Virus record (IMG/VR): IMGVR_UViG_3300025099_003085 | Span: 1 to 39,064 of that record | Strand: one strand, 5' to 3' | DNA length: 39,064 nucleotides | DNA from: a virus | In this document: positions 9,006 to 32,123 of the stretch, piece by piece | Position numbering within the stretch: position 1 is the first letter of the stretch | Layout: each line of letters begins with the position of its first letter | Notes under the pieces: model-generated | Told to the model about the DNA's origin: nothing | The model's input: only the letters and a program-made list of their open reading frames with translations | The model's database searches: none | Program-made: the position numbers and the translations under genes

Positions 9006-10021
9006 TGAAGCACTATTTAAAAAATATAAAAAGAAAATTTGATACAGATGATAAATCTAAGTATGATTTTGTATTGAATCAAAGTGAAAGAACACAACCG
9101 ATACCCGATTTTGCAAAGTTTTTACAGACTATTACTCAAGAAGATTTTTTTTATTATCCAAATACTGAAGAATTTAAATTTAAACTGGGAATGTGGTATG
9201 GTGTACAAACTAATCAGATTTTTTTAAGTGCTGGTTCTGATATAGGAATAAAGTCTGTTTTTGAAACGTTTACAGATGGTGGTAGAGTTGTAACTTCAAA
9301 TCCATCATTTCCAATGTACAAAGTGTATAGTGAATTGTATCAATGTGAATACTTTGGAATACCACACGAAAAGGATTACACGATATCTATGGAAAAGATA
9401 TTGTCCAATATTACACACGATACAGATTTAGTTATTTTGGCAAATCCAAATAGTCCAATGGGAGAGTATAAATCTTTCGATGAAATACGAATATTATTAG
9501 AACAAGATGTACCTGTATTAATTGATGAGGCATACATAGAATTTACCGATAAAGATAGTGTGTTAAAATACATTCACGAATATCCTAATTTAATTGTTAC
9601 AAGAACTTTCTCAAAAGGATTTGGAGCAGCAGGATGTAGAGTTGGTTGTGTGATTTCACATGAAAATAATATTGAGTTGATAAGTAAATTTAGGCATATG
9701 TATGAGATTACAGGAGTGTCTATGAAGTATTGTGAATTTTTATTGAATAACCACAATTTGGTTGATATTTATATAGAGAGTGTAAAGAAAGAAAAGAAAA
9801 AATTAGTTTCAATGTTAAATGGTTATGATGTCATAGATTCTAATTGTAATTGGATACATTTTAATACAAAAGATGATAATTTAAAAACTAAACAAATATT
9901 TGATAAACATAAAGTTTTGGTTAAGTATTGTAAACTTCCACACGATGATAGAAAAAATTGGTGCAGATTAACAATACAACCAAATTTAACAAAAGAAAAA
10001 TTTATAAAGGAATTGTTATGA
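9005..10021 (+). CDS. PLP-dependent aminotransferase (HisC-like, class I/II)
   Basis: A fold-type I aminotransferase of about 338 residues. Visible motifs are A-N-P-N-S-P-M-G (substrate/PLP asparagine), I-D-E-A-Y-I-E-F (Asp and Tyr contacting PLP), R-T-F-S-K-G-F-G with the Schiff-base lysine near residue 204, and a C-terminal C-R-L-T-I with the substrate arginine. These are closest to histidinol-phosphate aminotransferase and CobD-like enzymes. I start it at the ATG at 9005 because AGGAG at 8996-9000 is well spaced; the GTG at 9002 would be too close to it. It probably makes an amino-sugar or amino-alcohol in this cassette rather than histidine, since no other his genes are present. Confidence 0.9.
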   Translation: MKHYLKNIKRKFDTDDKSKYDFVLNQSERTQPIPDFAKFLQTITQEDFFYYPNTEEFKFKLGMWYGVQTNQIFLSAGSDIGIKSVFETFTDGGRVVTSNPSFPMYKVYSELYQCEYFGIPHEKDYTISMEKILSNITHDTDLVILANPNSPMGEYKSFDEIRILLEQDVPVLIDEAYIEFTDKDSVLKYIHEYPNLIVTRTFSKGFGAAGCRVGCVISHENNIELISKFRHMYEITGVSMKYCEFLLNNHNLVDIYIESVKKEKKKLVSMLNGYDVIDSNCNWIHFNTKDDNLKTKQIFDKHKVLVKYCKLPHDDRKNWCRLTIQPNLTKEKFIKELL

Positions 10022-10851
10022 ATAAGAAATTTCTAAAGAAAAAACGAAATCAAATCATAGAAGATATGTTTGAAATGTGTATTAAGGCAGGTGATGGTCA
10101 CGTTACTTCGTGTCTTTCTTGTGCAGATATAATGACCTTATTGTTTTATGGTGGATATGTTAATCATAATCCTAAAAATCCACAATGGAATAAAAGGGAC
10201 AGATTTATATTGAGTAAGGCTCAGGCAAGTCCTATTTTTTATACTATTTTAGCAGACAGAGGTTATTTTGATAAAAAAGAAATGGATAAGTTTGCACAAC
10301 AAGATGGAATATTTGGAGTTCATTTACAAAGTGATGTACCAGGTGCAGAAATATCTGCAGGTTCACTTGGACACGGATTTGGATTGGCCTCTGGTATTGC
10401 GTTAAGTGCAAAACTTAATACAGAATTGTATTTGACTTATTGTTTGTTGGGTGATGGGGAACTATATGAGGGTTCTGTATGGGAAACTGCAATGTTTGCA
10501 TCACATCATAGATTAAATAATTTAGTTGCTATTGTAGATAGGAACTCACAATGTACTCTTGACTTTACAGAAAATATTGTTAAGTTGGAACCAATTGAAG
10601 ATAAATGGAAATCATTTGGTTGGGAAGTTAAACGAGTTGATGGACACAATTTGAAAGAATTACAACGTGTATTCAAGTATGTAAGGGCTAGAAGAAGTGA
10701 TAAACCTTTAGTGATTATAGCAGATACTGTAAAAGGAAAAGGTATTGATTATTTATCATATAAACCATTATGGCATGGTGGAACACCAATTAAAGATGAA
10801 GATGTGAACGCATCAAGAAAAGATTTACAAAGGAGTGTTCAAAATGGGTAA
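10018..10851 (+). CDS. Transketolase, N-terminal (TPP-binding) subunit
   Basis: A protein of about 277 residues equal to the TPP-pyrophosphate domain of transketolase. It has G-H-V-T-S-C-L-S near the N-terminus (equivalent of the GHPG region), A-G-S-L-G-H-G-F-G at about 114-122, and the TPP motif G145-D-G-E-L-Y-E-G...N-N-L-V-A-I-V-D-R-N. I start it at the ATG at 10018, which forms ATGA with the aminotransferase stop and has AAAGG upstream; an upstream in-frame extension to 9958 lies inside the aminotransferase gene. The partner subunit follows directly. Split transketolases in polysaccharide clusters move two-carbon units between sugars; the substrate here is unknown. Confidence 0.9.
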   Translation: MNKKFLKKKRNQIIEDMFEMCIKAGDGHVTSCLSCADIMTLLFYGGYVNHNPKNPQWNKRDRFILSKAQASPIFYTILADRGYFDKKEMDKFAQQDGIFGVHLQSDVPGAEISAGSLGHGFGLASGIALSAKLNTELYLTYCLLGDGELYEGSVWETAMFASHHRLNNLVAIVDRNSQCTLDFTENIVKLEPIEDKWKSFGWEVKRVDGHNLKELQRVFKYVRARRSDKPLVIIADTVKGKGIDYLSYKPLWHGGTPIKDEDVNASRKDLQRSVQNG

Positions 10852-11785
10852 AAATACCAAAAGTACTATTTTAAATCAAAAATATAGTCAAAGAGATGCA
10901 TTTTTTACAAAAGTGTATGAAATGATGAAAGACGATAGTGATATTGTTATAGTTGTAGCAGATCAAGGAGCACCAATATTTGATAAGGTAAGACGAGATT
11001 TTCCTCATAGATTTTTTAATGTAGGAATTGCAGAACAACAAGCCGTTCTACTTGCATCTGGATTGGCCAAAGAAGGTAAAAAAGTTTTTGTTTATGCAAT
11101 TTCAACATTTATGATAATGAGATGTTATGAACAAATAAGAGTTTCTCAAGGTGTGATGAAATTACCAATCACGATAGTTGGAGTTGGTAGTGGATATAGT
11201 TATGATGATTCAGGCCCAACACATCATATGTTAGAGGATATTTCTATTATGAGAGTTTTACCACATATGACAATTAATAGTATTACAGATAATGTAATGG
11301 CAAAAATGATAGCAGAAGAATCTGTAAATATGAATACACCAAATTATGTTAGATTGGATAGACATATAAGACCAGATATTTATAAAGATGATGACGATCT
11401 TTCATTTGGTTATAATGTTTTAGAAGAAGGTACAGATGGTTATTTTATTTCAACGGGCATAATGACTGATGTGGCAATACAACATTATGATGGAAAATTA
11501 GGTATAATTGATTTACATACCATTCCTTGTCACGAAAGTTCCCTTTCAGAAATTATACAGGATAAAAAAGTAATTACACTTGAAGAACACTTTTTGCCTG
11601 GTGGTTTAGGAAGTTATGTTTTAGAGATTATTTCAGATAACGATTTAAATACAAGAGTAAGACGAATAGGATTAAAACAGGCATACATTTATCGTTATGG
11701 TGGTAGACAAGATAATTGGGATTATCATGGATTAAAATCCTCAAATATTATTAAAATAAAGGATGAGTTTCTTGAGAGAATATGA
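10844..11785 (+). CDS. Transketolase, C-terminal (pyrimidine-binding) subunit
   Basis: A protein of about 313 residues with the pyrimidine-binding and C-terminal domains of transketolase/DXS-like enzymes. R-F-F-N-V-G-I-A-E64-Q-Q carries the glutamate that activates TPP. Then come F-V-Y-A-I-S-T-F, a G-x-G-S-G-Y segment, D-D-S-G-P-T-H-H, and the C-terminal L-E-E-H-F...G-G-L-G-S. The ATG at 10844 is 8 bases after AGGAG (10831-10835) and overlaps the partner's stop by 8 bases (ATGGGTAA), so translation is probably coupled and the two chains made in equal amounts. A GTG at 10835 lies within the ribosome site and is unlikely. It works with the upstream subunit as one heteromeric enzyme. Confidence 0.9.
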   Translation: MGKNTKSTILNQKYSQRDAFFTKVYEMMKDDSDIVIVVADQGAPIFDKVRRDFPHRFFNVGIAEQQAVLLASGLAKEGKKVFVYAISTFMIMRCYEQIRVSQGVMKLPITIVGVGSGYSYDDSGPTHHMLEDISIMRVLPHMTINSITDNVMAKMIAEESVNMNTPNYVRLDRHIRPDIYKDDDDLSFGYNVLEEGTDGYFISTGIMTDVAIQHYDGKLGIIDLHTIPCHESSLSEIIQDKKVITLEEHFLPGGLGSYVLEIISDNDLNTRVRRIGLKQAYIYRYGGRQDNWDYHGLKSSNIIKIKDEFLERI

Positions 11786-12720
11786 ATAAGCAAAAAACGT
11801 TAATTGGGGTTGGTTGCTCACATACACAAGGAAGTGCGTTTATAGTTGGGCCAGAAACTCCAGATGAAAATGGTATGTATGAATTGGCCTCATCACAATT
11901 AAAGGAAAAATATAAAACAGATAAGGTTGATGAAAAGTTTATAACTAATCTGTCTTGGGTTGGTAAGTTAAATAAATATTTAAAGTATGACAGAGTTCTA
12001 AACTTTGGACTTGGTGGTAGAGGATTAGAGCCAAATATCAGAAGTCTAAGAAGTTATGCATATAAAGTTAAAGATTTATCAAATCATTTAATTGTAATTA
12101 TGCCGGCACCCGCGACAAGAAAAGAAGTTTTACATTTAAATCCTAAAAAAGAATATACAGGTGACTTTTTTAATGATACAAGTGACCATGAAACTATACA
12201 AAGACAGAGTAATTATGTATTAGATGGACATTTAACAAATGGGATTGAAGATATACATCCAAACGCTAATTTAAAGAAAAGTTATTTTGAAAACTATTAT
12301 CATGAAGAATATTTTGAGTATATATCTATAATGGACTTGTATTATTTACAAGACTATTTAGAATTAAAGGGTGCAAAAGTTTTCATTTGTGTGACTCTTG
12401 CTGGATATGGGGCTCCAGAAATATCCGTTGAATATTATTATGAGAAATTAATTAGTAATTCAAATAAATGGTATGAGTTTTTTACACCAGAACATTCATT
12501 TCATACAGAATTACAAACTCCACCTAATATTAAAGAGGTTATAAAAAAGATTAATTGGTTATTTTCAATCAGTACAGATGAATCTCTTTATTTATCAGCA
12601 AAAAAAGAGGGATTTAATTTACATGAAGCTGGATTAGTTCATGATGATAGACATTTAACAGAACTTGGTAATGAAATATTGGCTCAAGGGTTGTATAGTG
12701 AGTTGAAAAAATATGAATAA
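11782..12720 (+). CDS. SGNH-hydrolase-like protein, longer type
   Basis: A 312-residue protein with SGNH-like blocks: G-V-G-C-S-H-T-Q-G at residues 9-17 (S13 as nucleophile candidate), L-N-F-G-L-G-G-R-G for block II, and a C-terminal D288-D-R-H291-L-T-E-L-G-N-E-I-L for the Asp-His pair followed by the usual helix. Between blocks II and V it has an insert rich in Tyr/Asp/Glu that the gene at 7432 lacks. It starts as ATGA on the transketolase stop. No signal peptide is present. A carbohydrate esterase or O-acyltransferase role fits the neighbours but is inferred. Confidence 0.6.
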   Translation: MNKQKTLIGVGCSHTQGSAFIVGPETPDENGMYELASSQLKEKYKTDKVDEKFITNLSWVGKLNKYLKYDRVLNFGLGGRGLEPNIRSLRSYAYKVKDLSNHLIVIMPAPATRKEVLHLNPKKEYTGDFFNDTSDHETIQRQSNYVLDGHLTNGIEDIHPNANLKKSYFENYYHEEYFEYISIMDLYYLQDYLELKGAKVFICVTLAGYGAPEISVEYYYEKLISNSNKWYEFFTPEHSFHTELQTPPNIKEVIKKINWLFSISTDESLYLSAKKEGFNLHEAGLVHDDRHLTELGNEILAQGLYSELKKYE

Positions 12721-13468
12721 ATTACACTTTTCTGATGAAGATACAAATTTATTAAGAACCGAAAAATATTTAAAAAAGTTTGATAGAAAAAAGACGTTAC
12801 GATATTTAATTGATATTGATAATCCAACAATATTTGATTTAGGTGCAAATAACGGTAAAAGTACAGTTGATTTTAAAAATATTTGGTCTAATTCAGTAAT
12901 TCATAGTTTTGAACCACAACAAGAATGTTGGAATGAATTTAATAAAAATTTGAAACATTGCAATGATGATAGTGTTATTTTAAATAAGGTTGCGGTAGGT
13001 AATGTTTCTGACAATAGTAAAAGATTTTATACACACGATATAAGCACTGGTTTGGCTGGATTCAATAAAATAAATACTAAAAGTGGTGATTCCATTGATA
13101 TAAATAAATTGAAACAGGGTGGTGTCAATCACGAAAGAAATGTACAGGTTATCAGACTTGATAATTATATGAATGATAATAATATTGAAATGGTAAATTT
13201 AGTTAAAATAGATTGTCAAGGATTTGAACCAGAAATACTTGAAGGATTTGGAAATAGATTATCAGACGTTGAGGTGGTGGTTACCGAACTTATGTTATAT
13301 GATTTATACGAACGTAGTTTATCCTTTAGTGAGATTGAAAAATTTTTAATACCAAATGGGTTTCAACTATATGATATTACTCATATAGCTAAAAATCCAA
13401 TGAATGGTAGAACTGATTGGGTTGATGTGTTATATTTAAATACTACAAGGAGAAAATATCATGATTAA
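12713..13468 (+). CDS. FkbM-family SAM-dependent methyltransferase
   Basis: A 251-residue protein with a SAM-binding motif I of F-D-L-G-A-N-N-G-K-S-T at residues 41-51, an acidic end of beta-2 in H-S-F-E-P (64-68), and the family-typical L-V-K-I-D-C-Q-G-F-E-P-E-I-L followed by V-V-V-T-E-L. This pattern is diagnostic of the FkbM family, which O-methylates sugars and natural products. The ATG overlaps the previous stop by 8 bases (ATGAATAA). It probably methylates a glycan or its precursor; the position of methylation cannot be told. Confidence 0.85.
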   Translation: MNKLHFSDEDTNLLRTEKYLKKFDRKKTLRYLIDIDNPTIFDLGANNGKSTVDFKNIWSNSVIHSFEPQQECWNEFNKNLKHCNDDSVILNKVAVGNVSDNSKRFYTHDISTGLAGFNKINTKSGDSIDINKLKQGGVNHERNVQVIRLDNYMNDNNIEMVNLVKIDCQGFEPEILEGFGNRLSDVEVVVTELMLYDLYERSLSFSEIEKFLIPNGFQLYDITHIAKNPMNGRTDWVDVLYLNTTRRKYHD

Positions 13469-15663: not shown

Positions 15664-16521
15664 ATGATTAAACTAAAAGATTTACTTGAAGCCAGTAAAA
15701 CTGGTACAACATCCTCATCTGAATCACTTGGTGGGTATAAAGGATTTATAAAACCCGAAGATTTTGACGCTTATAAAAAAGATTTAGCAAAAAAACTAAA
15801 ACTAATATTAGCAGAGGGTGTTAATGATCCTGGTATATTCAAGGCCGTATTTCTTGCAGGTGGGCCTGGTAGTGGAAAAACCTATGTAGTGAAACAAATC
15901 TTTGGAATACCTGATAGATTTAATATCAGTATGAGTGGTATGAAGATGGTTAACTCAGATAAAGAGTTAAAATATTTGTTAAGAAAATACGGATTCGGTA
16001 CAGATTTAGATAAGATGCCAGATGAGGTATTTGATGATTTGACTACACCTGGTAAGAGTGGATTAAGAAAGTTTTCAAAAGAACTTACTAAACAAAGAAT
16101 GAAACTATATCAACAAGGTAAGTTGGGAATGATTATAGATGGTACAGGCCATGACTTTCGTAAGATACAAACCATGAAAAAAATGTTAGAAGATGATGGA
16201 TACGACACTTACATGGTATTTGTAAATACATCATTAGAGGTGGCACAAAAAAGAAATCAAGAAAGAGATAGAATATTACCACCAAACTTATTAGAAAAGA
16301 GTTGGAAAGATGTTCAGAAGAATCTTGGAAGTTTCCAAGCATTATTTAATAATAATTTCGTGATAGTTGATAATTCAAAACATTTATCCGAAGAAGAAGC
16401 GGAGGCAAAATTTGTTCCATTGGTTACTAAAGTTATTAGAAAATTTGTGGCAAAACCCATCAAGAACAAACTTGGAAAAATGTGGGTTACAAAACAAAAA
16501 CGTCTTAATAGGAGAAAATAA
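15664..16521 (+). CDS. Zeta-toxin/polynucleotide-kinase-like P-loop kinase with capsid-targeting-type N-terminus
   Basis: A 285-residue protein. The Walker A loop G-G-P-G-S-G-K-T is at residues 66-73. M-I-I-D-G-T-G-H-D at 156-164 matches the Walker-B/catalytic strand of zeta-toxin and PNK-like kinases, and R-N-Q-E-R-D-R near 197-203 suits a lid with phosphate-binding arginines. The first residues, M-I-K-L-K-D-L-L-E-A, are nearly the same as the starts of five other proteins here and end in an L-x-E site like that cut by T4-type prohead proteases, so the enzyme may be packaged in the capsid. It is the first gene after a promoter-like box and is followed by an endolysin. The substrate (RNA/DNA 5' end, nucleotide or UDP-sugar) is unknown. 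Confidence 0.75.
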   Translation: MIKLKDLLEASKTGTTSSSESLGGYKGFIKPEDFDAYKKDLAKKLKLILAEGVNDPGIFKAVFLAGGPGSGKTYVVKQIFGIPDRFNISMSGMKMVNSDKELKYLLRKYGFGTDLDKMPDEVFDDLTTPGKSGLRKFSKELTKQRMKLYQQGKLGMIIDGTGHDFRKIQTMKKMLEDDGYDTYMVFVNTSLEVAQKRNQERDRILPPNLLEKSWKDVQKNLGSFQALFNNNFVIVDNSKHLSEEEAEAKFVPLVTKVIRKFVAKPIKNKLGKMWVTKQKRLNRRK

Positions 16522-17305: not shown

Positions 17306-20300
17306 ATGAATAAATTAACAGAATGGTTAATTAAAGATTTAATTGATGAGGGAGTTGAATTACCAATTAAAGTGGGTGATACCGTTTTGATGGGTAGATT
17401 CAAAAATAAACGAGTCAAAATAAAATCAATTAATTTTAATGAAAAGGGTGATTTGTTAATCAACAATCGTCCTGCCTTAAAATTCAGAGTGGTTAGTTCC
17501 CAAACTACAGAGGCTGCTAGAATACCTCGTAAAAAAGGACAACATAGAGGTTCTTCATCTCATTCAGATTTATACACCGATGAGAATCCAAAGGGTACAA
17601 TCAAAGGATTAAAGTTTGCAACCGTAAAGGATGCACAGGCCTCTGTATCTAAAATAAAAGGTAGTGGTAAGAAACACGCTCATAAAATACAGGCGGCGGT
17701 TGCTATGGAACAACGAGCAAAAGAAATGGGTAAAAAATCCGCTGCAGCTGTTTATAGAAAATTCATCAACCAAATGAAAAAGAAAACCAAAGCAAAGAAT
17801 GAAGTAGGGTTAGGTTCAACTAAAAAAGTTGTAGGTAGTAATGTTTATACCTTTGGGCCAGATTGGATACCAACAAGTTTAGCTCAAAGAAAGAAAATGA
17901 AAAGACTACACAATAAATTAAATAAGTCTATACGAGAAGATGTTAATTATTTGGTAAATGAATTTGATTGTGGTTGTCAAGAACTCTACGAGATAGAAAA
18001 AATTAATGAAAAGTGGAGTGCAAAATACAAAAAAAGTATTAATTGTAACAACCCTAAAGGATTCAGTCAACGAGCACATTGTCAAGGTAGAAAGAAAAAT
18101 GAAGAGTTTGGTGCACCAGCAGGTGTAATTCCATCACCAAGTCGTAAGATGGTTAAAAAAATGAAGAAAAAGGGAAATACTTCAGTTCCTTATGGTAGTG
18201 GATATGAAAAGATTGAAGAACGATTTGCAGTCAGAGGTAATAAAGTAGAAAAGTTTATCACTGGTAAAAATCTTACACATAAAGGTAAGAAATATAAAGA
18301 GATAGATTTTGAATTAGTAAAAGTAGATAATCCTAAAAAATTAGTTACACTTAGAATCTTAGCACCAAAAAAATTATTTGGTCAAGAAGTACCTGTGAGA
18401 TTCCAAACACTTAGAAGAGGCCCTTTTCTCAAAACCGATACAAGTAAAGTTCGTGAGGGACTACCAACTAAAACAACTGATAAATTTAAAAAATTAAAAA
18501 ATAAACCAGAAACAGATGCTGGAAAGGATTTTTCTGTACATCATGGTTATTCTATGAGTGCTCCTATGGGTAGTCTTTCTGAACCAGACACTTATGATTG
18601 GGATGATGATGACAGAGAAATCGGTGGAACTCAAAAAGAAAAAGATAAAAGGAAAAAAGGTTACGAACCAGTAAAAGAAGACAGAACAAAAATCAAAAAA
18701 GTAGTTGGTATTTATGGTGGTAGATTTCAACCATTTGGCCCACATCACAAAAAAACATATGATTGGTTAAAATCAAGAGTTGATGATGCATATATCACAA
18801 CATCTGATATCAAGAAACCACCAAGACACCCAATGAACTTCAATGAAAAAGTTCGTCATATGGTCAAGATGGGTATTCCTAAAAATCGAATTGTGAAAGA
18901 AAAATCACCATATATCGCTAAAAACGTATTAAAAAAGTATGATGAGAAAACAACTGCTGTTATTTATATTTTTGGTAAAAAAGACGCTGGTAGATTATCA
19001 GGTGGAAAGTATTTTAAAGATTATGACAAGAACAGAGGTAACATTTTAGGATATGGTGAACATGGTTATATTCTCACAGCACCTCACGTATCAATCAAAG
19101 TCGGTGGTAAAGAAGTAAGTGGAACTGTAATGAGAGATTTACTCGGTTCACCAGAAAATGAAAAGGGTAGAGAAAAATTATTCAAGCAGGCATTTGGATA
19201 CTTTGATAAGGGTATCTATAATATGATGACAAATAAATTTAAAAAATTATACGAATTTTATCAACAAGATTCTGTAAAAGAAATAATCAAAGAAGTTAGT
19301 GCTTTAGGGGCTACGATAACTGCAGGTGATTTAGATGATGAGGGATTGTATGATTTCTTTAATTCATTCGCTGATTACAAAAGAGTATCACCAAAACATG
19401 CACAAATTTTAGGTTGGGACGTAATAGATGATATTATTGATTTTGAGAATGCAACAGATCCTGGTCTTGATTATTCAACCTCAACCGTAGATAGAATATC
19501 AACCGTAACATATGGTAGAACTATAAATCAAAACACAAAGAATACAGATAGTGTGGATAATCCATTTCCTAAATATAAACAACATATGAATCAAATGATT
19601 GATAAACTTGGTTGGGAAATCGTAAAATTCTTTGGTGAAAAGGAAATAAAGGCAAAGAAAATTAAAGATTCTGATACACACGATATGGGAACTGCAACTG
19701 CAGGTAGTGGTAATACAAATAAACCAGCAACTCCAGATAAACTTAAAAAGATACAAGAGAATTTTCAAAGAGATGTGGGGTTACTGATTGAGGGTGGTGC
19801 TTATGGACATATGTCACATCCATTTGATGATAATAATCTGACGTTTTCAGATTTGAAACAGATAATTATTAATGGTATAGGTGGAAAGTTAGACAGAGAA
19901 GATGGGGTTACAGAGAAACTCGATGGACAAAATCTAATGGTAAGTTGGGTTGATGGTAAATTAAAGGCAGCTAGAAACAAAGGTCATCTCAAAAATCGTG
20001 GTAAAACAGCTCCAACCACAAGTGGAGTAAAGAGTATGTTTAGTGGTAGAGGTGATATACAAAAGGCCTTTGTAGGTGCGATGAAAGATTTAGAAAAGGC
20101 AATTGGTAAATTATCAGATAAACAAAAAGAAAAAGTATTTGGTAATGGAACCAAGTGGATGAATTTAGAGGTTATGTATCCAGCAACAGCAAATGTAGTA
20201 GATTATGATGTGGCAGAAATAGTGTTTCACGGCACGATAGAATATGATGATAGTGGAAGGGCAGTAGGTCAACCTAAAGATAGTGCTCGTATGTTAGCTG

Positions 20301-21019
20301 GTATGATAAAACAAGTAAACCAAAGCGTTCAAAAAATGTTTAGGATTGGAAAACCAAACTTTTTACAAGTTCCCAAATCTCAAAACTTTGGTAAATTAAA
20401 AGGTAAATTTTTACAACAAATAAATAAATTACAATCTACATATTCATTAAAAGATACAGATAAGTTGGGTGAATATCATCAGGCATATTGGAGAGAGTAT
20501 GTATTTAATGCATCTAAACAATTTAAAGTTAGTTTGAAACCAAATCAATTTGTTAGTTTGGTTAATCGTTGGGCATATTTTGATAAGTCATATAAGATAG
20601 CGGATATTAAAAAAGATTATAAAGATAGTCCAAAATTTTTAGATTGGATATTATCTACAGATAAGAATGATGTTCAAAAGATTTTTAAAGATAATATAAA
20701 ACCATTTGAAGTTTTATTCTTTTCAGTTGGTGCTGAAATATTGAAAAATATAAGTGGGTATATGGCAGCCTCACCAAATAAAACGGTACAAAAAATGAGA
20801 AAAGAAGTCATTCAGGCATTAAGGGATTTGAAAAGTGGTGGTAAGGTTGATAAATTAAAAAAGTTAAAAATACAAATTGAAAAATTAGAAGCAATTGGTG
20901 GATTAGATGCAATTGTTCCAAGTGAGGGAGTGGTGTTTAAGTATAAGGGTAAGACTTATAAGTTTACAGGAGCATTTGCACCAATCAATCAGATACTTGG
21001 TAGTTTGAAATTTGGATAG
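17306..21019 (+). CDS. Giant multidomain protein: capsid-targeting-type N-terminus, SH3-like segment, NMN-adenylyltransferase-like and polynucleotide-ligase-like domains
   Basis: A 1237-residue protein. Residues 1-16 (M-N-K-L-T-E-W-L-I-K-D-L-I-D-E-G) end in I-D-E|G, the same site as in the capsid protein. Residues 20-62 look like a small beta domain (V-G-D-T-V-L-M-G-R-F-K-N-K). A conserved basic module around 95-160 and a Cys-containing basic segment (233-266) follow. Residues 464-645 form a nucleotidyltransferase: V-V-G-I-Y-G-G-R-F-Q-P-F-G-P-H-H at 466-481 is a HIGH-type motif as in NadM/NMNAT, and a later S-G-T-V-M-R-D-L is in the ISSTxxR position. Residues 825-1237 resemble an ATP/NAD-dependent ligase: E870-K871-L-D-G, R890-N, N-L-E955 and E1207-G-V-V with Y-K-F-T. 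No other function can be read from residues 665-820. Confidence 0.75.
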   Translation: MNKLTEWLIKDLIDEGVELPIKVGDTVLMGRFKNKRVKIKSINFNEKGDLLINNRPALKFRVVSSQTTEAARIPRKKGQHRGSSSHSDLYTDENPKGTIKGLKFATVKDAQASVSKIKGSGKKHAHKIQAAVAMEQRAKEMGKKSAAAVYRKFINQMKKKTKAKNEVGLGSTKKVVGSNVYTFGPDWIPTSLAQRKKMKRLHNKLNKSIREDVNYLVNEFDCGCQELYEIEKINEKWSAKYKKSINCNNPKGFSQRAHCQGRKKNEEFGAPAGVIPSPSRKMVKKMKKKGNTSVPYGSGYEKIEERFAVRGNKVEKFITGKNLTHKGKKYKEIDFELVKVDNPKKLVTLRILAPKKLFGQEVPVRFQTLRRGPFLKTDTSKVREGLPTKTTDKFKKLKNKPETDAGKDFSVHHGYSMSAPMGSLSEPDTYDWDDDDREIGGTQKEKDKRKKGYEPVKEDRTKIKKVVGIYGGRFQPFGPHHKKTYDWLKSRVDDAYITTSDIKKPPRHPMNFNEKVRHMVKMGIPKNRIVKEKSPYIAKNVLKKYDEKTTAVIYIFGKKDAGRLSGGKYFKDYDKNRGNILGYGEHGYILTAPHVSIKVGGKEVSGTVMRDLLGSPENEKGREKLFKQAFGYFDKGIYNMMTNKFKKLYEFYQQDSVKEIIKEVSALGATITAGDLDDEGLYDFFNSFADYKRVSPKHAQILGWDVIDDIIDFENATDPGLDYSTSTVDRISTVTYGRTINQNTKNTDSVDNPFPKYKQHMNQMIDKLGWEIVKFFGEKEIKAKKIKDSDTHDMGTATAGSGNTNKPATPDKLKKIQENFQRDVGLLIEGGAYGHMSHPFDDNNLTFSDLKQIIINGIGGKLDREDGVTEKLDGQNLMVSWVDGKLKAARNKGHLKNRGKTAPTTSGVKSMFSGRGDIQKAFVGAMKDLEKAIGKLSDKQKEKVFGNGTKWMNLEVMYPATANVVDYDVAEIVFHGTIEYDDSGRAVGQPKDSARMLAGMIKQVNQSVQKMFRIGKPNFLQVPKSQNFGKLKGKFLQQINKLQSTYSLKDTDKLGEYHQAYWREYVFNASKQFKVSLKPNQFVSLVNRWAYFDKSYKIADIKKDYKDSPKFLDWILSTDKNDVQKIFKDNIKPFEVLFFSVGAEILKNISGYMAASPNKTVQKMRKEVIQALRDLKSGGKVDKLKKLKIQIEKLEAIGGLDAIVPSEGVVFKYKGKTYKFTGAFAPINQILGSLKFG

Positions 21020-23526: not shown

Positions 23527-23904
23527 ATGAAGAATTTAATTAAAATATTATTATTCACGGGAATAGTTTTTTCACAAGAAAAGACGTATACTTTTACTGA
23601 ATCTGAAATTTTGGGTTTTACCAAACAGATTACTGATTTACAGGTAAAAGATAGTTTAAACACTAAAACTATTAAAGACTTGGAATCGATTATCAAATTG
23701 TTGGAACAAAATGCACAAACAGATTCACTAATAATTACGAATAAAGACCTTTCGATTGAAGTATTGAAAGAACGTTCAGAAATATTAGAAAAAAAGGTAA
23801 AACTTGTGAAACCGAGTTGGTATGAGAATAAATGGTTATATTTCACTTATGGAGTGATTATGACCGCGACTTCTGTAAAGCTTGCTGGTGAGATAGTACA
23901 ATAA
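23527..23904 (+). CDS. Signal-peptide and coiled-coil protein with C-terminal hydrophobic segment (possible spanin partner)
   Basis: A 125-residue protein beginning with a signal-peptide-like segment M-K-N-L-I-K-I-L-L-F-T-G-I-V-F-S, followed by Gln-Glu-rich helices forming a coiled coil (about residues 25-95). A C-terminal hydrophobic helix (W-L-Y-F-T-Y-G-V-I-M-T-A-T-S-V) follows. No lipobox Cys is present, so it is not a classic lipoprotein o-spanin. The stop overlaps the terminase start as TAATG. It may be exported and membrane-linked, and its partner may be the preceding gene; this is inference. Confidence 0.6.
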   Translation: MKNLIKILLFTGIVFSQEKTYTFTESEILGFTKQITDLQVKDSLNTKTIKDLESIIKLLEQNAQTDSLIITNKDLSIEVLKERSEILEKKVKLVKPSWYENKWLYFTYGVIMTATSVKLAGEIVQ

Positions 23905-25481
23905 TGTCTACTAATCCAACACCACTAAAAGAAGTAATCAAAACTGAATATGTGAAGTGTGCAAAAGATCCTGCATATTTTATGAAAAAGTATTGTATGA
24001 TTCAACATCCAATTAAAGGTAAAATACCATTTAGTCTATATGATTTCCAAGAATCTACTGTAAATGAATTTCAAGATAATCGTTTTAATATAATATTAAA
24101 GGCAAGACAACTTGGTATATCGACTGTTACTGCTGGATATAGTTTGTGGATGATGACATTCTATCAAGATAAAAATGTTCTTGTGATTGCCACAAAACAA
24201 GATGTTGCAAAGAATTTAGTAACAAAAATTCGTGTGATGCATGCAAACTTACCGAGTTGGTTGAAACAAAAATGTGTTGAGGATAATAAGTTGAATCTTC
24301 GGTATGTTAATGGTTCTCAAGTTAAGGCAGTATCATCAGGACCAGAAGCAGCTCGTTCAGAAGCTCTATCATTGTTGATATTGGATGAGGCAGCATTTAT
24401 TGATAAGATTGATGATATATGGACTGCAGCTCAACAAACATTAACGACTGGTGGTAGTTGTATTGCACTTTCTACACCAAATGGTGTTGGTAATTGGTTT
24501 CACAAAACTTGGGTAGAGGCCGAAGAAGGACGAGGATTATTTAACTTTATCAAACTTCATTGGACGGTTCATCCTGAAAGAGACCAAACTTGGAGAGACG
24601 AACAAGATAACTTATTGGGTATGCAGAGTGCAGCACAAGAATGTGATTGTGACTTTATCACTTCTGGTACTTCAGTTATTGATGCACAAATTTTAGAAGA
24701 ATGTAAAACCAAAACGGTTAAGGATCCTGTAGAAAAACGAGGAGTGGATAGTAACTTGTGGATTTGGAAACCACCAAACTATACTAAAAATTATGTGGTA
24801 TGTGCTGATGTTGGACGTGGTGACTCAGCAGACTATTCTGCATTCCATGTAATTGATGTAGAGAATGTAGAACAAGTTGCAGAATATAAAGGTAGAATAC
24901 CTACAAAAGATTTTGGTAATATGTTAGTGAGTATTTCAACAGAATATAATGATGCCTTACTAATTATAGAAAACAATAATATTGGTTGGGCAACGATACA
25001 ACAAGTAATAGATAGGGAATATCCTAATCTATTTTATACAAGTAAAGATTTACAATATGTCGATATTGCTCATCAGATGACAAATCGATATAGAAGTAGT
25101 GATAAAAGTATGGTGGCTGGATTCAGTACAACGATGAAAACCAGGCCATTAATTATTGCTAAACTTGAAGAATATTTTAGAGATGAATCTGTAGTGGTTC
25201 GTTCAAATAGATTGGTGGACGAATTATTCACATTCATTTATTTAAATAATAGAGCAGAAGCGATGAGGGGATACAATGATGACCTCGTGATGTCTTTTGC
25301 AATTGGACTTTGGGTTCGTGATACTGCATTAAGATTACGAACTGAGGGAATTGAATTAACAAAAAAGACTCTTGATAGGATGATGGATGTTGATGGTGTT
25401 TATAAACCTGAAGAAAATAAATCTGATTATTGGGATATGGAAGTTAACAAAGAAAGAGAGTCCTTAGAGTGGCTCTTATAA
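23904..25481 (+). CDS. gp17: Terminase large subunit (gp17-like)
   Basis: A 525-residue DNA-packaging motor. The Walker A-like segment A-R-Q-L-G-I-S-T is at residues 67-74, and Walker B plus catalytic glutamate L-L-I-L-D161-E162-A-A-F follows. Further on, A-L-S-T-P-N-G is the coupling motif. The nuclease domain starts near V-C-A-D302-V-G-R-G-D-S-A-D-Y-S, with the metal-binding aspartate, and later L-V-I-E-N-N-N-like and E-F/T-I motifs. Length and motifs fit T4 gp17 (about 610) and its shorter marine relatives. It is followed at 12 bases by the portal gene, without the sheath and tube genes that sit between them in T4. Confidence 0.95.
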   Translation: MSTNPTPLKEVIKTEYVKCAKDPAYFMKKYCMIQHPIKGKIPFSLYDFQESTVNEFQDNRFNIILKARQLGISTVTAGYSLWMMTFYQDKNVLVIATKQDVAKNLVTKIRVMHANLPSWLKQKCVEDNKLNLRYVNGSQVKAVSSGPEAARSEALSLLILDEAAFIDKIDDIWTAAQQTLTTGGSCIALSTPNGVGNWFHKTWVEAEEGRGLFNFIKLHWTVHPERDQTWRDEQDNLLGMQSAAQECDCDFITSGTSVIDAQILEECKTKTVKDPVEKRGVDSNLWIWKPPNYTKNYVVCADVGRGDSADYSAFHVIDVENVEQVAEYKGRIPTKDFGNMLVSISTEYNDALLIIENNNIGWATIQQVIDREYPNLFYTSKDLQYVDIAHQMTNRYRSSDKSMVAGFSTTMKTRPLIIAKLEEYFRDESVVVRSNRLVDELFTFIYLNNRAEAMRGYNDDLVMSFAIGLWVRDTALRLRTEGIELTKKTLDRMMDVDGVYKPEENKSDYWDMEVNKERESLEWLL

Positions 25482-25493
25482 GTGAGGTAAAAA

Positions 25494-27311
25494 ATGGCTG
25501 ATAAAACATTATTTGGTCGGTTAAGTCGATTGTTTAGTACTAACGTTATAGTTAGAAACGTTGGTGGTAAAAAATTAAAAATTGCTGATACAGATAAATT
25601 ACAACATGGTGTGAGAAGTCACCTTGTGGATAGATATTCAAAAATGCATAGTGGATTGGACTTAATAAGTTCAGGATATTCTACTGTACATCAAGTTATG
25701 GCTGCAAGACTTGGGTTATTTAAGGATTACGAAACAATGGATTCTGATTCTATTATATCAAGTGCTCTTGACATTTATTCAGATGAATCTACTATGAAAA
25801 ATCCATACGGACAAGTTTTGGAAATTCAAAGTGATAATGATAACATCAAATCAATATTACATAATTTATTTTATGATATTATGAATATTGAATTCAATCT
25901 CTGGCCTTGGGTAAGGAATTTAACTAAGTATGGTGATTTCTTTTTACATTTAGATATAAGTGATAAGTATGGAGTTACAAACGTCATACCTCTTTCTCCA
26001 TACGAAGTCATTCGAGCTGAGGGAGAAGATCCTGAAAATCCATACTATACTAAATTTTATTTAGAAACGATGGAATCAACACATCCATATTTACATAAGG
26101 CTCAATCTGGTGTAGGTAAAGTTGAGTTTGAAAACTTTCAAATTGCACATTTTAGATTATCGAGTGACAGTAATCTTTTACCTTATGGTAAATCAATGTT
26201 AGAGGGAGCTAGAAAAGTTTGGAAACAAGTTACATTGATGGAAGACGCTATGTTAATACATCGTGTAATGAGAGCACCAGAAAAGAGAGTGTTTAAAGTT
26301 GATATTGGAAACATACCACCAAACGAAGTTGATAATTACATGCAAAGAATCATCAACAAGATGAAGAAGACACCATTCATTGATGATAAAACAGGTGACT
26401 ATAACTTGAAGTTCAACATACAGAACTTAACAGAAGATTTCTTTATGCCAGTTCGAGGTGGAGATAGTGGAACGTCAGTTGAGTCATTACCAGGAATGCA
26501 ATATGAAACTACAGATGACTTAGAGTATTTGAAAAATAGATTGTTGGCAGCACTTCGTGTCCCAAAGGCATTTCTTGGATATGAAGAAAGTCTTGGTAGT
26601 AAAGCAACATTGGCAGCTGAAGATGTTAGATTTGCTCGTACAATTGAAAGAATACAGAGAATTATAACAAGTGAATTAACAAAGATTGCAGTTGTTCATT
26701 TATATTCACAAGGATTTACTGATGAAGAGTTGGTCAATTTTGAATTAAATCTAACTAACCCATCTACAATCTATGAACAAGAGAAGATTGAATTGTGGAG
26801 TAATAAGGTTAATTTAGCTCGTGATGTAAAAGATAATACTTTAATGTCTGCAGATTGGATTTATAAAAATGTTTTTAATTTTACAAACGACCAAGTTAAA
26901 GATATTGAAGATGGAATTATAAAAGACCAAAAACAAAAGTTTAGATATTCTCAGATTGAACAAGAGGGTAATGATCCTGTTAAGAGTGGGGATGTAGTTG
27001 GTACACCAAGTGATTTGGCAGCAATTGGTACTTCTGGTGACGAGGGGGCTCCTGATTCACCAGATGCAGTTGGTTCTGTATTCGACCAAGAGAATATGGG
27101 AAGACCTGAAGAAGTACCAAGTTATTCCAAAGATGGAAGTGCTAGAGGTAGAGATCCTTTAGGTAAGGTTAAACCACAACTAGCATTGTCTCACTATGAT
27201 TCTTTGAAACAATCAGGATTAAAGTCTAATTCTGTCAAAGAGATACTTAAAGAAACAAATGAATCAGAAGAAATATCAAATGAATATGATGAATTTGTTA
27301 AAAAAGATTAA
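25494..27311 (+). CDS. gp20: Portal protein (gp20-like)
   Basis: A 605-residue protein of the T4 gp20 portal family. Recognisable parts are an N-terminal D-S-I-I-S-S-A-L-D-I-Y-S-D-E-S segment, A-P-E-K-R-V-F-K-V-D-I-G-N in the clip region, and L-K-N-R-L-L-A-A-L-R-V-P-K-A-F-L-G-Y-E with the long stem helices. The C-terminus ends with a low-complexity stretch and V-K-E-I-L-K-E-T, which contains an I/L-x-E-type site. It forms the dodecameric ring at the head vertex and binds the terminase. An AGGTAAAAA ribosome site precedes the ATG. Confidence 0.93.
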   Translation: MADKTLFGRLSRLFSTNVIVRNVGGKKLKIADTDKLQHGVRSHLVDRYSKMHSGLDLISSGYSTVHQVMAARLGLFKDYETMDSDSIISSALDIYSDESTMKNPYGQVLEIQSDNDNIKSILHNLFYDIMNIEFNLWPWVRNLTKYGDFFLHLDISDKYGVTNVIPLSPYEVIRAEGEDPENPYYTKFYLETMESTHPYLHKAQSGVGKVEFENFQIAHFRLSSDSNLLPYGKSMLEGARKVWKQVTLMEDAMLIHRVMRAPEKRVFKVDIGNIPPNEVDNYMQRIINKMKKTPFIDDKTGDYNLKFNIQNLTEDFFMPVRGGDSGTSVESLPGMQYETTDDLEYLKNRLLAALRVPKAFLGYEESLGSKATLAAEDVRFARTIERIQRIITSELTKIAVVHLYSQGFTDEELVNFELNLTNPSTIYEQEKIELWSNKVNLARDVKDNTLMSADWIYKNVFNFTNDQVKDIEDGIIKDQKQKFRYSQIEQEGNDPVKSGDVVGTPSDLAAIGTSGDEGAPDSPDAVGSVFDQENMGRPEEVPSYSKDGSARGRDPLGKVKPQLALSHYDSLKQSGLKSNSVKEILKETNESEEISNEYDEFVKKD

Positions 27312-27387: not shown

Positions 27388-28266
27388 ATGTCCTATAATA
27401 AAAAGCATAACAAAATAAAGAATACGGGTATTCTTTTTGAATTACTTACTCGACAAATCACCGTAGATGTGTTGAACAACGAAAAAGATAGTTCTTCTAT
27501 AAAAATTTTAAAAGAATTTTTCAATGCAAATACAGAATTGGGTAAGGAAAATGAACTTTATAAGATTTTAACAGAAAAGAAATATAAAAGTGCTAAACAC
27601 TCAGAGATATTGATTGAAGCTGTCATTAAAAATCGTAGAAAATTATCAAATCGTAGACTAAGAAACGAAAAATATAATTTAATCAAAGAAATTAAACGTA
27701 GTTACGATACAAAAGATTTTTTCAATACTAAATTACCAAACTATAAAGTCTTGGCATCAATTTATAATATATTTGAAGGTGAATCTGCACGTGAAAGTTA
27801 CGGGCCAGTAATTGAGACCGATAGTAAAGTAGTTGTAATGGAAAATATCACAAATCAATCGTCAAACAAGTCAAAAAATCTATCAGAAAAGTCTTACAAA
27901 TCGTACGAAACACAAGAGGAAGACATTAGACTTTTGACATATCAACTATTAGTTGATAAATTCAATAAAAAATATAGTAATCTAAGTGAATCACAAAGAA
28001 ATTTGTTAAGAGAATACATTAACAATTTATCAAACACTAATTCTTTGAGAGAATTCATAGATGCTGAAGTTATTAAAATTAGAAAAGTTTTATCACAACA
28101 CTTAAATAGAGTGGATGATAAAATAACGAAAATTAAACTGACCGAAGCAATTGCTCATACAGATAATGCTACGAGTGGGAAACGTGTAAAAGATTCTCAC
28201 GTTGTATCTTTAATGAGATATTATGAATTAGTGAAGGAATTAGAAAATGTCCACGAAAATAAGTAA
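27388..28266 (+). CDS. Prohead-core-region protein, unknown function
   Basis: A protein of about 292 residues if started at the ATG at 27388, which has GGAG 6 bases upstream; an ATG at 27376 lies over that ribosome site. It is Lys/Asn/Ser-rich, with a helical N-terminal part (I-L-F-E-L-L-T-R-Q-I-T) and a helical C-terminal part. It lies between portal and the core/protease genes, the place of small core proteins gp67/gp68 in T4, but it is far larger. No motif is recognised. A role in the prohead core is suggested by position alone. Confidence 0.75.
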   Translation: MSYNKKHNKIKNTGILFELLTRQITVDVLNNEKDSSSIKILKEFFNANTELGKENELYKILTEKKYKSAKHSEILIEAVIKNRRKLSNRRLRNEKYNLIKEIKRSYDTKDFFNTKLPNYKVLASIYNIFEGESARESYGPVIETDSKVVVMENITNQSSNKSKNLSEKSYKSYETQEEDIRLLTYQLLVDKFNKKYSNLSESQRNLLREYINNLSNTNSLREFIDAEVIKIRKVLSQHLNRVDDKITKIKLTEAIAHTDNATSGKRVKDSHVVSLMRYYELVKELENVHENK

Positions 28267-28900
28267 AAAAACATTTAAAGAGTTATTACGAAAACTCATC
28301 CAGCGTGAAATAGAGGAAGCATCAACCACTGCTAATGTACCTGGATACGATACACCGAGGGCATTTGCAGGTAAGGGTACTAAGATGGGTGTACCATTGG
28401 ATAGAAGAGATTCTATTGCAAGTGGTAGTGGATATGAAAAGATAGATGAGGCAGATGATCACGAAGGAAAGATGGCAAAGGCTCAGTTAGAAAGAAGTAT
28501 GGAATATGCTGGGATGATTTACAAAATGATTGGTAATGTTGACACCGATGGTGATGGTGAAGTTAATTTTCCATCATGGGTACAATCATATTTGACAAAA
28601 TCTCAAGATTATTTACAAAGTGTATATAATTACTTAGATGGTAAAGATGGATTAGATGATAAATTTCAAAAAGAAGAATCAGTAAATGAAGATGCTAAAG
28701 ACGTAACTAAAGCAAAAAAAATTACACGTGATTTAGAAAAAATTGAAGGTAAATATCGTAAATCTATGTATGATTTATCCGATAGATTACAGGCAGATCC
28801 TAAAAATCACAAGTTACAAGATGAATTAGTAAGATCATATACAAAGAATGTAACATCTTTCATGAGAGATATGATTAAAATAACTAAAAGGATGAAATAA
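28247..28900 (+). CDS. Prohead-core-type protein with EF-hand-like loop
   Basis: A 217-residue protein whose ATG is 20 bases inside the previous gene, with AAGGAA upstream. Its N-terminus has a basic amphipathic helix ending I-E-E-A. Then come T-A-N-V-P-G-Y-D-T-P-R-A-F-A-G-K-G, seen in T4-like phages between portal and protease, and G-S-G-Y-E-K-I-D-E, shared with the giant protein. D-T-D-G-D-G-E-V-N-F looks like an EF-hand/dockerin calcium loop. K-E-E-S-V-N-E is a repeated module. These features suggest a core protein cut by the prohead protease; the next gene is that protease. Confidence 0.7.
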   Translation: MSTKISKKTFKELLRKLIQREIEEASTTANVPGYDTPRAFAGKGTKMGVPLDRRDSIASGSGYEKIDEADDHEGKMAKAQLERSMEYAGMIYKMIGNVDTDGDGEVNFPSWVQSYLTKSQDYLQSVYNYLDGKDGLDDKFQKEESVNEDAKDVTKAKKITRDLEKIEGKYRKSMYDLSDRLQADPKNHKLQDELVRSYTKNVTSFMRDMIKITKRMK

Positions 28901-29520
28901 TGAAAGAGCTTATAGTCGATTATATTCCATTTGAAGTATCACCACAACAAATAACCGAGGCCATGAAAGAAAACAATGGTAAGTTAGTTGTTAAGGGTGT
29001 ATTACAAAGAGCAGATGCGAAGAATCAAAATGGAAGAGTATATCCAATGGAGATTCTACAAAGAGAAGCAAAGAATTATGATGAGGGATTCATCAAACAA
29101 TCCCGTGCTATGGGTGAACTTGACCATCCAGATTCATCAGTTGTGAATTTACAAAATGTATCACATAATGTAACTGAAATGCACTTTGAGGGTGATAACC
29201 TATTAGGTACAGTTGAAATCTTAACTACACCAAGTGGTAACATTTTAAGAGAATTATTTAAGAATGGAATTAAACTTGGTATCTCTTCTCGTGGTATGGG
29301 TTCAGTAGAAACCGTAAATGAAGATAATGGTGGACAAGTAATGAAAGTTGGAGATGATTTTGAACTTATAGCGTTTGATTTTGTAAGTAATCCATCTACA
29401 CACGGAGCTTTTATGCATCCACTACAAGAAAATGTTGATAAGTCTCAAACACAAGGTAGAACTTGTGGTACGTATTGTAAGGCAGAAGATATAATTAACA
29501 AAATCATACGAGGAGAGTAA
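28900..29520 (+). CDS. gp21: Prohead core protease (gp21-like)
   Basis: A 206-residue serine protease of the T4 gp21 (U9/S77) family. The catalytic His is in M-G-E-L-D-H76-P, and the nucleophile Ser is in L-G-I-S-S130-R-G-M-G-S (S129 or S130). F-D-F-V-S-N-P-S-T-H-G near residue 160 is a conserved C-terminal block. T4 gp21 has the same spacing (His85, Ser140). It cleaves after I/L-x-E in core and capsid proteins during head maturation, and sites of this form are frequent in this window. TAATG joins it to the previous stop; the C-terminus has a Cys-containing tail (R-T-C-G-T-Y-C). Confidence 0.93.
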   Translation: MKELIVDYIPFEVSPQQITEAMKENNGKLVVKGVLQRADAKNQNGRVYPMEILQREAKNYDEGFIKQSRAMGELDHPDSSVVNLQNVSHNVTEMHFEGDNLLGTVEILTTPSGNILRELFKNGIKLGISSRGMGSVETVNEDNGGQVMKVGDDFELIAFDFVSNPSTHGAFMHPLQENVDKSQTQGRTCGTYCKAEDIINKIIRGE

Positions 29521-29521
29521 A

Positions 29522-30703: not shown

Positions 30704-30993
30704 TTAAGTTAAAACATATATTAACAGAGAAAAGAGAATTTCCTGCAGATGGGATTACTGTTATGAGTTTGCAAACTGATAGAAATGAACATACCAAAGC
30801 TAGACTTACTTTAGCTCAAGTAATGAAAAATAAAAAATTTATAGGTATCTACAAAGCTATAGAAAATATACAAGATATTGAAAGATTCTTCCCATCAGAG
30901 TTAAGAAAATATCGTGATAGTGTGGATAAAGAACTATTCAAAACTGCTAAAAAGATGTATAGTAACTTCAAAGACATAAACGGAGCATTTTAA
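30700..30993 (+). CDS. Capsid-targeting-type small protein, paralogue A
   Basis: A 97-residue protein started at the ATG at 30700, which forms ATGA with the previous stop. It opens with M-I-K-L-K-H-I-L-T-E|K: the shared N-terminus plus an L-x-E site. The rest is helical and basic with F-F-P-S-E-L-R-K-Y-R-D-S-V-D-K-E-L-F-K-T-A-K-K-M. The next gene is a paralogue with the same pattern (L-R-K-V-R-D-L-A-D-K-N-L-F-K-L-A-K-G-M). The fold and function are unknown. By analogy with T4 internal proteins (IPI-IPIII), it may be packaged and injected. Confidence 0.75.
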   Translation: MIKLKHILTEKREFPADGITVMSLQTDRNEHTKARLTLAQVMKNKKFIGIYKAIENIQDIERFFPSELRKYRDSVDKELFKTAKKMYSNFKDINGAF

Positions 30994-31687: not shown

Positions 31688-31695
31688 GGTATTAG

Positions 31696-32091: not shown

Positions 32092-32095
32092 TTTA

Positions 32096-32103
32096 TATTT
32101 ATT
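32096..32103 (+). promoter_or_regulatory. TATTTATT box, variant of the late-promoter-like motif
   Basis: GTTTATATTTATTACC in the 32-base gap before the gene at 32124 differs by one base from the TATTTATA box seen in four other gaps. The start of transcription, if any, would lie about 20 bases before the ATG. Confidence 0.3.
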
Positions 32104-32123
32104 ACCGAATTAGGAGAACAAAA

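Follow-up and report, generated by a model that had tools for sequence, protein, structure and literature searches.

The window studied here, by which we mean the whole stretch of DNA that was analysed, is a virus record of 39,064 bases (IMG/VR record IMGVR_UViG_3300025099_003085) with open frames at both ends. It holds a gene for a protein of 1237 residues, in which a tag-like N-terminus and a string of small modules are followed by a HIGH-type nucleotidyltransferase (NTase) and an RNA-ligase-like domain. We consider it probable, with moderate confidence, that this protein is a polyprotein that is packaged in the phage head, cut as the capsid matures and carried into the cell along with the genome, there to counter defences that cleave RNA and perhaps deplete nicotinamide adenine dinucleotide (NAD). 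The gene and its enzyme part are laid out as follows:

17306..21019, plus strand: modular polyprotein gene, 1237 residues; open frame from ATG at 17306 to the stop at 21019, relatives found
18695..19270, plus strand: HIGH-type NTase, residues 464-655 (H481 at 18746-18748); AlphaFold2 (AF2) model, fold list, match to an NMN adenylyltransferase (NMNAT; NMN, nicotinamide mononucleotide) profile
19271..19774, plus strand: poorly conserved linker, residues 656-823; alignment
19781..21016, plus strand: RNA-ligase-like covalent nucleotidyltransferase, residues 826-1237 (K871 at 19916-19918); AF2 model, fold list, motifs

One frame of the reverse strand of 17306-21019 was read and is full of stops. 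Single-sequence searches of the whole protein against Pfam, PHROG and PDB returned a sub-threshold CTP_transf_like match and otherwise Pfam rows at chance level only; with searches so nearly empty, profiles and fold prediction were needed for identification. Scans of IMG/VR found relatives in 198/201, at least 563/600, at least 578/600 and at least 579/600 candidate stretches, and 80 loci were kept per scan. Once identical ligase sequences had been collapsed, 180 full-length copies remained, counting the window sequence itself, three entries taken from named records (L082-L084) and some relatives that are almost identical to one another; 94 of these copies lie in open reading frames (ORFs) with the 5' end inside the locus and are called complete below.

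Enzyme domains

An alignment of 41 sequences (A4) was made for residues 826-1237, and their AF2 model reached a predicted local distance difference test score (pLDDT) of 89.8 and a predicted template modelling score (pTM) of 0.86; in it, a long helical stretch separates the strands of motif III from motif IV. When 954 chains were re-aligned to form a fold list, ranks 1-26 were all RNA or tRNA ligases (Z 6.9-9.1), including Naegleria RNA ligase (Z 9.1), T4 Rnl1 (8.8), fungal tRNA ligase (8.6) and T4 Rnl2 (8.0). Ranks 27-34 were DNA and further RNA ligases, so that the first 34 are all nucleic-acid ligases, and human DNA ligase and capping enzymes came in at Z about 5. The motifs K-L-D-G (871-874), R-N (890-891), N-L-E (953-955) and E-G-V-V (1207-1210) are present, and motifs I (KxDG), III (E), IV (EG) and V (K) of covalent nucleotidyltransferases follow one another in order. 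K871, D873, G874, R890, E955, E1207, G1208 and K1219 are invariant in 182/182 full-length copies (aligned copies of at least 390 residues, 30 shorter ligase hits being left out). K871 is the predicted acceptor of adenosine monophosphate (AMP) in this RNA-ligase-like domain. A virion DNA ligase that would repair ends or nicks of the incoming genome could also carry such a domain, the covalent nucleotidyltransferase fold being common to DNA ligases (Z 5.0-6.9); against it stand the RNA and tRNA ligases that fill ranks 1-26 and a CCA-adding partner in relatives that has no DNA role, and we hold it to be quite improbable.

For residues 464-655 the alignment (A5) comprised 29 sequences and the AF2 model had a mean pLDDT of 91.9 and a pTM of 0.86. 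Its top structural matches are NadM-type NMN adenylyltransferases (2r5w, Z 12.9, 3.0 Å over 161 residues), with phosphopantetheine adenylyltransferase (CoaD) near behind (3pxu, Z 11.7), and Foldseek returned 89 chains at E ≤ 0.001, NadM first. The NTase profile matches the archaeal NMNAT 1f9a (E 1.3e-7) across the GRFQPF and SGTxxR regions. PF01467 is matched by 36/36 members at E 0.1 or better, and the NTase region alone scores 21.4 bits against its cut-off of 21 (18 for the whole protein). Conservation was counted over 137 aligned copies of at least 165 residues: position 481 is His in 136/137 and a gap in one, and S605, G606 and R610 of the SxTxxR signature are invariant in 137/137. By its fold the domain is a NadM-like adenylyltransferase, and its reaction would most likely be the making of NAD+ from NMN.

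The original prediction, made from the letters alone, had placed NTase-like and ligase-like motifs in this protein; they sit where it put them, their conservation in 137 and 182 copies is not due to chance, and AF2 models with fold searches bear out both a NadM/CoaD-type nucleotidyltransferase and an RNA ligase. Its HIGH-type motif is present as G-G-R-F-Q-P-F-G-P-H-H at residues 471-481 and lies in a fold of the expected kind, but the canonical HxGH is altered to G-P-H-H, position 478 being Gly in 103/137 copies and His in 30/137; the PF01467 HxGH signature with both histidines is absent from the window copy.

N-terminal tag and strings of modules

Ahead of the enzymes lie a putative propeptide and small modules, the latter given under working names:

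17306..17350, plus strand: putative capsid-targeting propeptide, residues 1-15, predicted cut LIDE/G; sequence, same form in relatives
17351..17503, plus strand: small module 'IPIKVGDTVLMGRFKNKR' (SH3), residues ~16-66; in 55/94 complete relatives
17516..17803, plus strand: small basic module 'RKKGQHR...' (KGQ), residues ~71-166; tblastn matches to cyanophages and Pelagibacter phages, in 19/94 relatives
17963..18103, plus strand: module 'NCNNPKGFSQRAHCQG' (NCN), residues ~220-266; tblastn matches to cyanophages, in 4/94 relatives
18104..18220, plus strand: small module 'IPSPSRK...SVPYGSGYEKIE' (SPS), residues ~267-305; in 46/94 relatives
18221..18457, plus strand: module 'AVRGNKVEKFITGKNLTHKGKKYKEIDFE' (AVR), residues ~306-384; in 24/94 relatives

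The working labels 'ART' and 'NTN', tried for two modules, were guesses and neither is backed by Pfam.

With its Glu site and two key positions one residue apart, the short N-terminus ending in LIDE/G looks like a capsid-targeting sequence (CTS) of the T4 type. In T4 internal proteins the propeptides have 10-19 residues, of which residues 8 and 10 govern processing (PMC9026906, in the part available). The N-terminal tag of the original prediction, MNKLTEWLIKDLIDE/G, recurs in form among relatives: a CTS-like pattern, composed after the sequences had been seen, occurs in 69/94 complete family proteins and in 121/982 other ORFs. Within its first 80 residues the major head protein of the window has four [LIV]xE sites, LIDE/ASRT among them, any of which may be the one that is cut.

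A census with twelve custom hidden Markov models (HMMs) distinguished 38 architectures among the 94 complete proteins, in which the modules between tag and NTase vary freely. A HIGH-type NTase precedes the ligase in 92/94; it was recognised by HMM in 82, and 10 of the other 12 have a GGFKPPHxGH HIGH-type motif near the N-terminus. The last two are L262, which starts similarly and misses this pattern, and L084, a lone ligase. The ligase always comes last, none of the 180 full-length copies having more than 20 residues after it. Proteins with the GGFKPPHxGH NTase before the ligase form a second lineage with different, unassigned middle modules (L229, L230, L234, L240, L245, L251, L257, L259, L261, L275).

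Kinase modules occur in 27 of the complete relatives, CCA-adding enzymes in 10 and HD domains in 6, and together with the ligase they resemble an RNA/tRNA-repair set. All are joined with NTase and ligase in one chain in L211 (2463 residues between stops; Pfam PolyA_pol E 5.4e-31, PolyA_pol_RNAbd 7.6e-9, HD 3.9e-8, and AAA_33 8.4e-5, sub-threshold). In the PDB, the CCA module of L032 matched poly(A) polymerases and CCA-adding enzymes by phmmer with E down to 1.3e-33, the HD module gave a weak match to poly(A) polymerase (E 0.008), and the kinase profile weakly touched L-seryl-tRNA kinase (E 0.0014) and 4mde (E 0.006), the kinase of Clostridium thermocellum Pnkp. Hydrolysis of 2',3'-cyclic phosphates is an activity of the HD domains found in bacterial CCA enzymes. 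A phage RNA repair set including polynucleotide kinase, CCA-adding enzyme and RNA ligase is described in the portion of PMC7824862 available.

The kinase is fused in some phages and a separate gene in others: across 34 loci it was fused only in 6, separate only in 9, absent in both forms in 19 and present in both in 0, the last having a chance probability of about 0.13 by hand calculation and not being taken as proof of mutual exclusion.

Candidate cut sites between modules

A candidate processing enzyme is encoded in the window:

28900..29520, plus strand: prohead protease of the T4 gp21 family (Peptidase_S77); Pfam E 8e-26, PHROG head maturation protease E 1e-52

The protease of SPN3US cleaves after A-X-E (PMC5694885, in the part seen). 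We examined 137 inter-module linkers with near-identical ones removed, each with four residues of either neighbour; linkers from the NTase to the ligase or to SH3 were left out. They contain 226 [LIV]xE, against 130.4 ± 9.5 in 200 shuffles, none of which reached 226, and this raw excess is inflated because the sites are homologous. At least one [LIV]xE is found in 107/137 linkers (70.4 in shuffles), and spacings of 0, 2, 3, 4 and 5 residues have no comparable excess. A depletion of [LIV]xE inside domains may reflect helix periodicity and was set aside as evidence. The [LIV]xE at the borders has the spacing of prohead-protease sites.

The kinase border is more regular. Its start (GVNDPG-like) is preceded by [LIVM]xE in 26/26 distinct fused contexts and in 21/22 solo contexts; the remaining solo context abuts a contig edge and cannot be read, and nine fused and one solo ORF could not be scored. 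The residues further upstream are often the tag itself (MIKLxDLLNE) in solo genes and an unrelated linker in fused ones. Cassettes that can be exchanged between protease sites would be expected to leave such a pattern, and it is the cleanest evidence for sites of this kind.

An alternative is that the chain remains uncut and is injected whole as a multidomain effector of the polyvalent type, [LIV]xE being ordinary linker and the tag alone being removed. In phages, polyvalent proteins that have 2-15 domains and are encoded close to late genes have been described (PMC5512222, in the passages available), and the control with collapsed sites given below weakens the cleavage statistic. An uncut chain would leave without account the spacing-specific excess of [LIV]xE in linkers, the kinase following [LIVM]xE/G whether fused or solo, and the gp21-family protease in the same window; we think it unlikely.

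Split ligases and points against the proposal

The 30 short ligase hits comprise one cut by a contig edge, 16 C-terminal pieces and 13 N-terminal pieces, and 13/13 of the latter stop just after EKLDGQNLM[IV]SW, a common break point. At 13/16 split loci a further ORF in the same locus supplies the missing motif-I start (L067, L171, L173, L175, L177, L181, L183, L187, L190, L196, L199, L216, L224), and in the four read out (L067, L171, L181, L190) it lies downstream, behind other genes; at L188, L189 and L203 the C-terminal piece was seen and no motif-I segment in the locus. With motif I on its own ORF, the catalytic lysine of this sub-lineage belongs to a second polypeptide, and the order of the two pieces is swapped. 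If both were packaged, they could reassemble into an enzyme.

Several observations weigh against a cut, head-packaged set of repair enzymes. The ligase is not always one piece: at 16 loci the NTase ORF carries it only from about ...GKLIAARNKG onward, without motif I. The fold match is moderate (best Z 9.1), and Foldseek alone ranked RNA ligases first with E above 0.01. With Pfam RNA_ligase (PF09414) the window copy reached 15 bits against a curated cut-off of 27 (25/37 members match weakly, best E 0.0049), a PDB search with the sequence profile of the ligase returned no ligase, and the predicted fold does not settle RNA versus DNA as substrate. The first His of the HIGH motif is missing in the window clade, and adenylyltransferase activity may consequently be changed or lost. 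Neither CCA nor HD modules occur in the window, whose 39 kb are open at either end, and they are lacking from most complete relatives. The NTase and RNA repair need not belong to one pathway; the NTase may serve NAD+ supply.

The cut sites are open to similar doubts. When look-alike contexts were collapsed, 110 [LIV]xE remained, against 45, 87, 80 and 80 for spacings 0, 2, 3 and 4; this is not above shuffles (mean 124, 108-142), in which homologues collapse less than real ones do. [LIV]xE also occurs inside domains (532, 870, 971, 1056), and the Glu before the kinase could belong to the kinase itself.

Genome setting

The polyprotein gene is followed by head genes and preceded by a kinase gene:

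15664..16521, plus strand: separate CTS-tagged P-loop kinase gene; AAA_33 E 2.7e-9, relatives fused inside the polyprotein in other phages
23904-25481, downstream of the polyprotein gene: T4-type large terminase
25494-27311, downstream of the polyprotein gene: gp20-type portal
34489-36147, downstream of the polyprotein gene: gp23-type major head protein

Terminase, portal, gp21-family protease and gp23-type head protein downstream mark the window as part of a T4-like phage. In a further alternative, the protein would be a head-core component whose enzyme domains are dead and which acts as bulk or DNA-condensing material only. The many small basic modules and the place of the gene among head genes are in keeping with this; the eight scored ligase motif residues, invariant in 182/182 copies, are not, and we judge it highly improbable.

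Near the protease and capsid genes (28247-32945) lie several small proteins with a MIKLKxLLxE-type start (at 30993, 31334 and 32124, plus an internal ATG at ~30700), which from their N-termini are probably further head cargo. The protein at 29522-30703 combines DUF3008 with a 'RDYKAEYKKFQSS' module that is also found inside the L035 polyprotein. At the other end of the window, 453-13468 (~13 kb) is a block for sugar or small-molecule biosynthesis with genes for a NAD-dependent epimerase, dTDP-sugar isomerase, radical SAM/SPASM protein, aminotransferase, transketolase (two ORFs) and FkbM methyltransferase.

By tblastn against named phages, 23 records were matched by the window protein. Microcystis phage Mel-JY01 and the uncultured phage LR756508 match the core (residues 464-1236), LR756500 matches only the ligase part, and the remaining 20, mostly cyanophages and two pelagiphages, match parts of the N-terminal half. 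A scan of genome contigs gave eight contigs from metagenome-assembled genomes (MAGs); of three read, two have terminase- and portal-like ORFs and the third has tagged proteins. On a 400-kb contig of an Erysipelotrichaceae MAG, which may be a large phage, L298 5230-7180 encodes a 27%-identical protein with GRFQPMTQGH and a ligase, adjoining proteins that start MKSLKEYMINE or alike.

Cultured relatives and virion proteins

In Pelagibacter phage HTVC008M one cluster encodes DUF6267 (Pfam E 3.4e-135), in which K-W-D-G and E-G-Y-V motifs are present, another protein that carries the small SH3-like module (assigned by eye), the kinase (Zeta_toxin E 3.1e-13, AAA_33 3.8e-11) and a HIGH NTase (PHROG cytidyltransferase E 3.3e-252; Pfam just under the cut-off). 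At E ≤ 1e-5, relatives of DUF6267 occur in 469 phage records and of the NTase in 530, mostly cyanophages. DUF6267 is directly followed by an annotated cytidyltransferase in 5/8 further loci (S-CAM9, S-MbCM7, ACG-2014e, S-H9-2, Syn19); in S-CRM01, Melnitz and XaC1 none stands directly after it within the stretch examined. The K-W-D-G-A-P and E-G-x-V...K motifs of DUF6267 (T4-GC71) are invariant in nine aligned sequences (L278 5236-6468 and cyanophages), and cyanophages may have in this family a ligase-type nucleotidyltransferase that has so far gone unrecognised. Its homology to the window ligase is not significant (hhalign E 0.33), though HxxH and KxDG motifs align, and is treated as a lead only; the DUF6267 profile found nothing relevant in the PDB.

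Cytidylyltransferases of the T4-GC190 type are homologous to the window NTase by profile (hhalign E 5e-9), and one was detected in purified S-SM1 virions (PMC3037559, in the part available). Virions of S-CREM2, S-SZBM1, S-SCSM1 and S-CBWM1 are likewise reported to contain NMNAT-like or cytidylyltransferase proteins (PMC10665884, PMC9602691 and PMC9146016, in part), some or all of which may belong to the window's NTase family; these proteins of cyanophage virions were detected by mass spectrometry. The virion enzyme of the original prediction is plausible as far as packaging goes, given the CTS-like N-terminus, the prohead protease and the cyanophage virion NTases. What that prediction missed is that the protein is one of many strings of shuffled modules with probable protease sites in between, so that the whole chain may at no stage work as a single enzyme.

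The recurrence of such proteins in cyanophage virions also suits a reading in which the NTase remakes NAD+ that a defence has depleted, and in which NAD or adenosine triphosphate (ATP) is used or sensed by the ligase-like domain for an adenylylation that ligates nothing, RNA repair not being the point. The best solved matches of the NTase are NMN adenylyltransferases, and NAD-based counter-defence is treated in PMC9503650 (as far as its text was available). RNA ligases heading the ligase fold list, RNA enzymes among the companion modules and the altered HIGH motif speak against it, and we regard this reading as somewhat unlikely.

Comparison with known systems

In the tRNA repair system of T4, Pnkp and Rnl1, kinase and RNA ligase act on cleaved tRNA. 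The pairing of kinase and RNA ligase is common to both systems; they differ in that the window ligase reaches no curated family cut-off, and to our knowledge Pnkp and Rnl1 are not known as virion cargo.

The nearest known class is that of polyvalent proteins, large chains of disparate enzyme domains near late genes that are predicted to be packaged and injected (PMC5512222, from the passages available). By its module census the window family falls within the range of 2-15 disparate domains that characterises this class, and its context is likewise one of late genes, with terminase, portal, protease and capsid genes following. It differs in that zincin-type processing is predicted for polyvalent proteins in those passages, whereas the signature here suits cutting by a prohead protease and the enzymes resemble those of RNA repair. 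One passage of that paper names RNA ligases as phage enzymes never seen associated with its 2H domains. At E 0.01 or better, Pfam scans of 11 relatives, some edge-cut, listed none of the domains typical of polyvalent proteins (zincin peptidase, ART, DarA and others), no dedicated profiles being used.

T4 internal proteins and Alt share the N-terminal propeptide of 10-19 residues that targets the core and is removed by gp21, and their cargo is ejected into the host (PMC9026906, in part); the T4 internal proteins are short and single, whereas the window protein strings many modules. T4-GC190 and its neighbour T4-GC71 (DUF6267) of cyanophages include the homologous HIGH NTase found in the S-SM1 virion (PMC3037559, in part) and differ in being separate genes in the loci read, although the phrog_455 profile spans both and fused forms may exist. 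Phage NAD+ synthesis enzymes, in which NMN adenylyltransferases are fused to Nudix or kinase (PMC7824862, in part), resemble the NadM-like NTase, which in the window, however, shares a chain with a ligase and follows a head-packaging tag. The original prediction knew no described system of this make-up; that was too strong, since both polyvalent proteins and NMNAT-like proteins associated with virions have been published. Among the matches listed from the literature, mostly freely readable, no prohead-protease-cut, RNA-ligase-ended cargo string is described.

Proposed mechanism and implications

In the mechanism that we favour, the first ~15 residues would steer the polyprotein into the prohead core and would then be removed by the phage's gp21-type protease. 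The same protease would probably cut at [LIV]xE between modules and free small proteins and enzymes inside the capsid, and the released proteins would enter the cell with the DNA at infection. Among them, the RNA-ligase-like enzyme (K871) would be paired with the NadM-like adenylyltransferase, and the kinase, CCA-adding and HD modules, fused or encoded by separate tagged genes in relatives, would complete a set able to clean, phosphorylate, re-tail and reseal cleaved tRNA. Starting in the first minute of infection, these enzymes in combination would neutralise defences of the anticodon-nuclease type and might do the same for NAD depletion.

More tentatively, and with rather less than firm conviction, we suggest a general form of this scheme. 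T4-like phages would load a swappable, prohead-protease-cut polyprotein made of a tRNA-repair line (HD, kinase, CCA-adding enzyme, RNA ligase) and an NMN-type adenylyltransferase. The head protease would double as cargo processor, modules could be inserted between cut sites against new defences, and the ligase could be dealt as two pieces.

If the mechanism is right, tRNA-cleaving defences would be met before any phage gene is expressed, repair starting ahead of the reading of phage genes, and the presence of cytidylyltransferase in cyanophage virions would acquire both a purpose and a partner. A CTS followed by [LIV]xE borders would offer a testable signature by which to find further cargo, and the arrangement would be a natural way to fit a number of enzymes into a single capsid.

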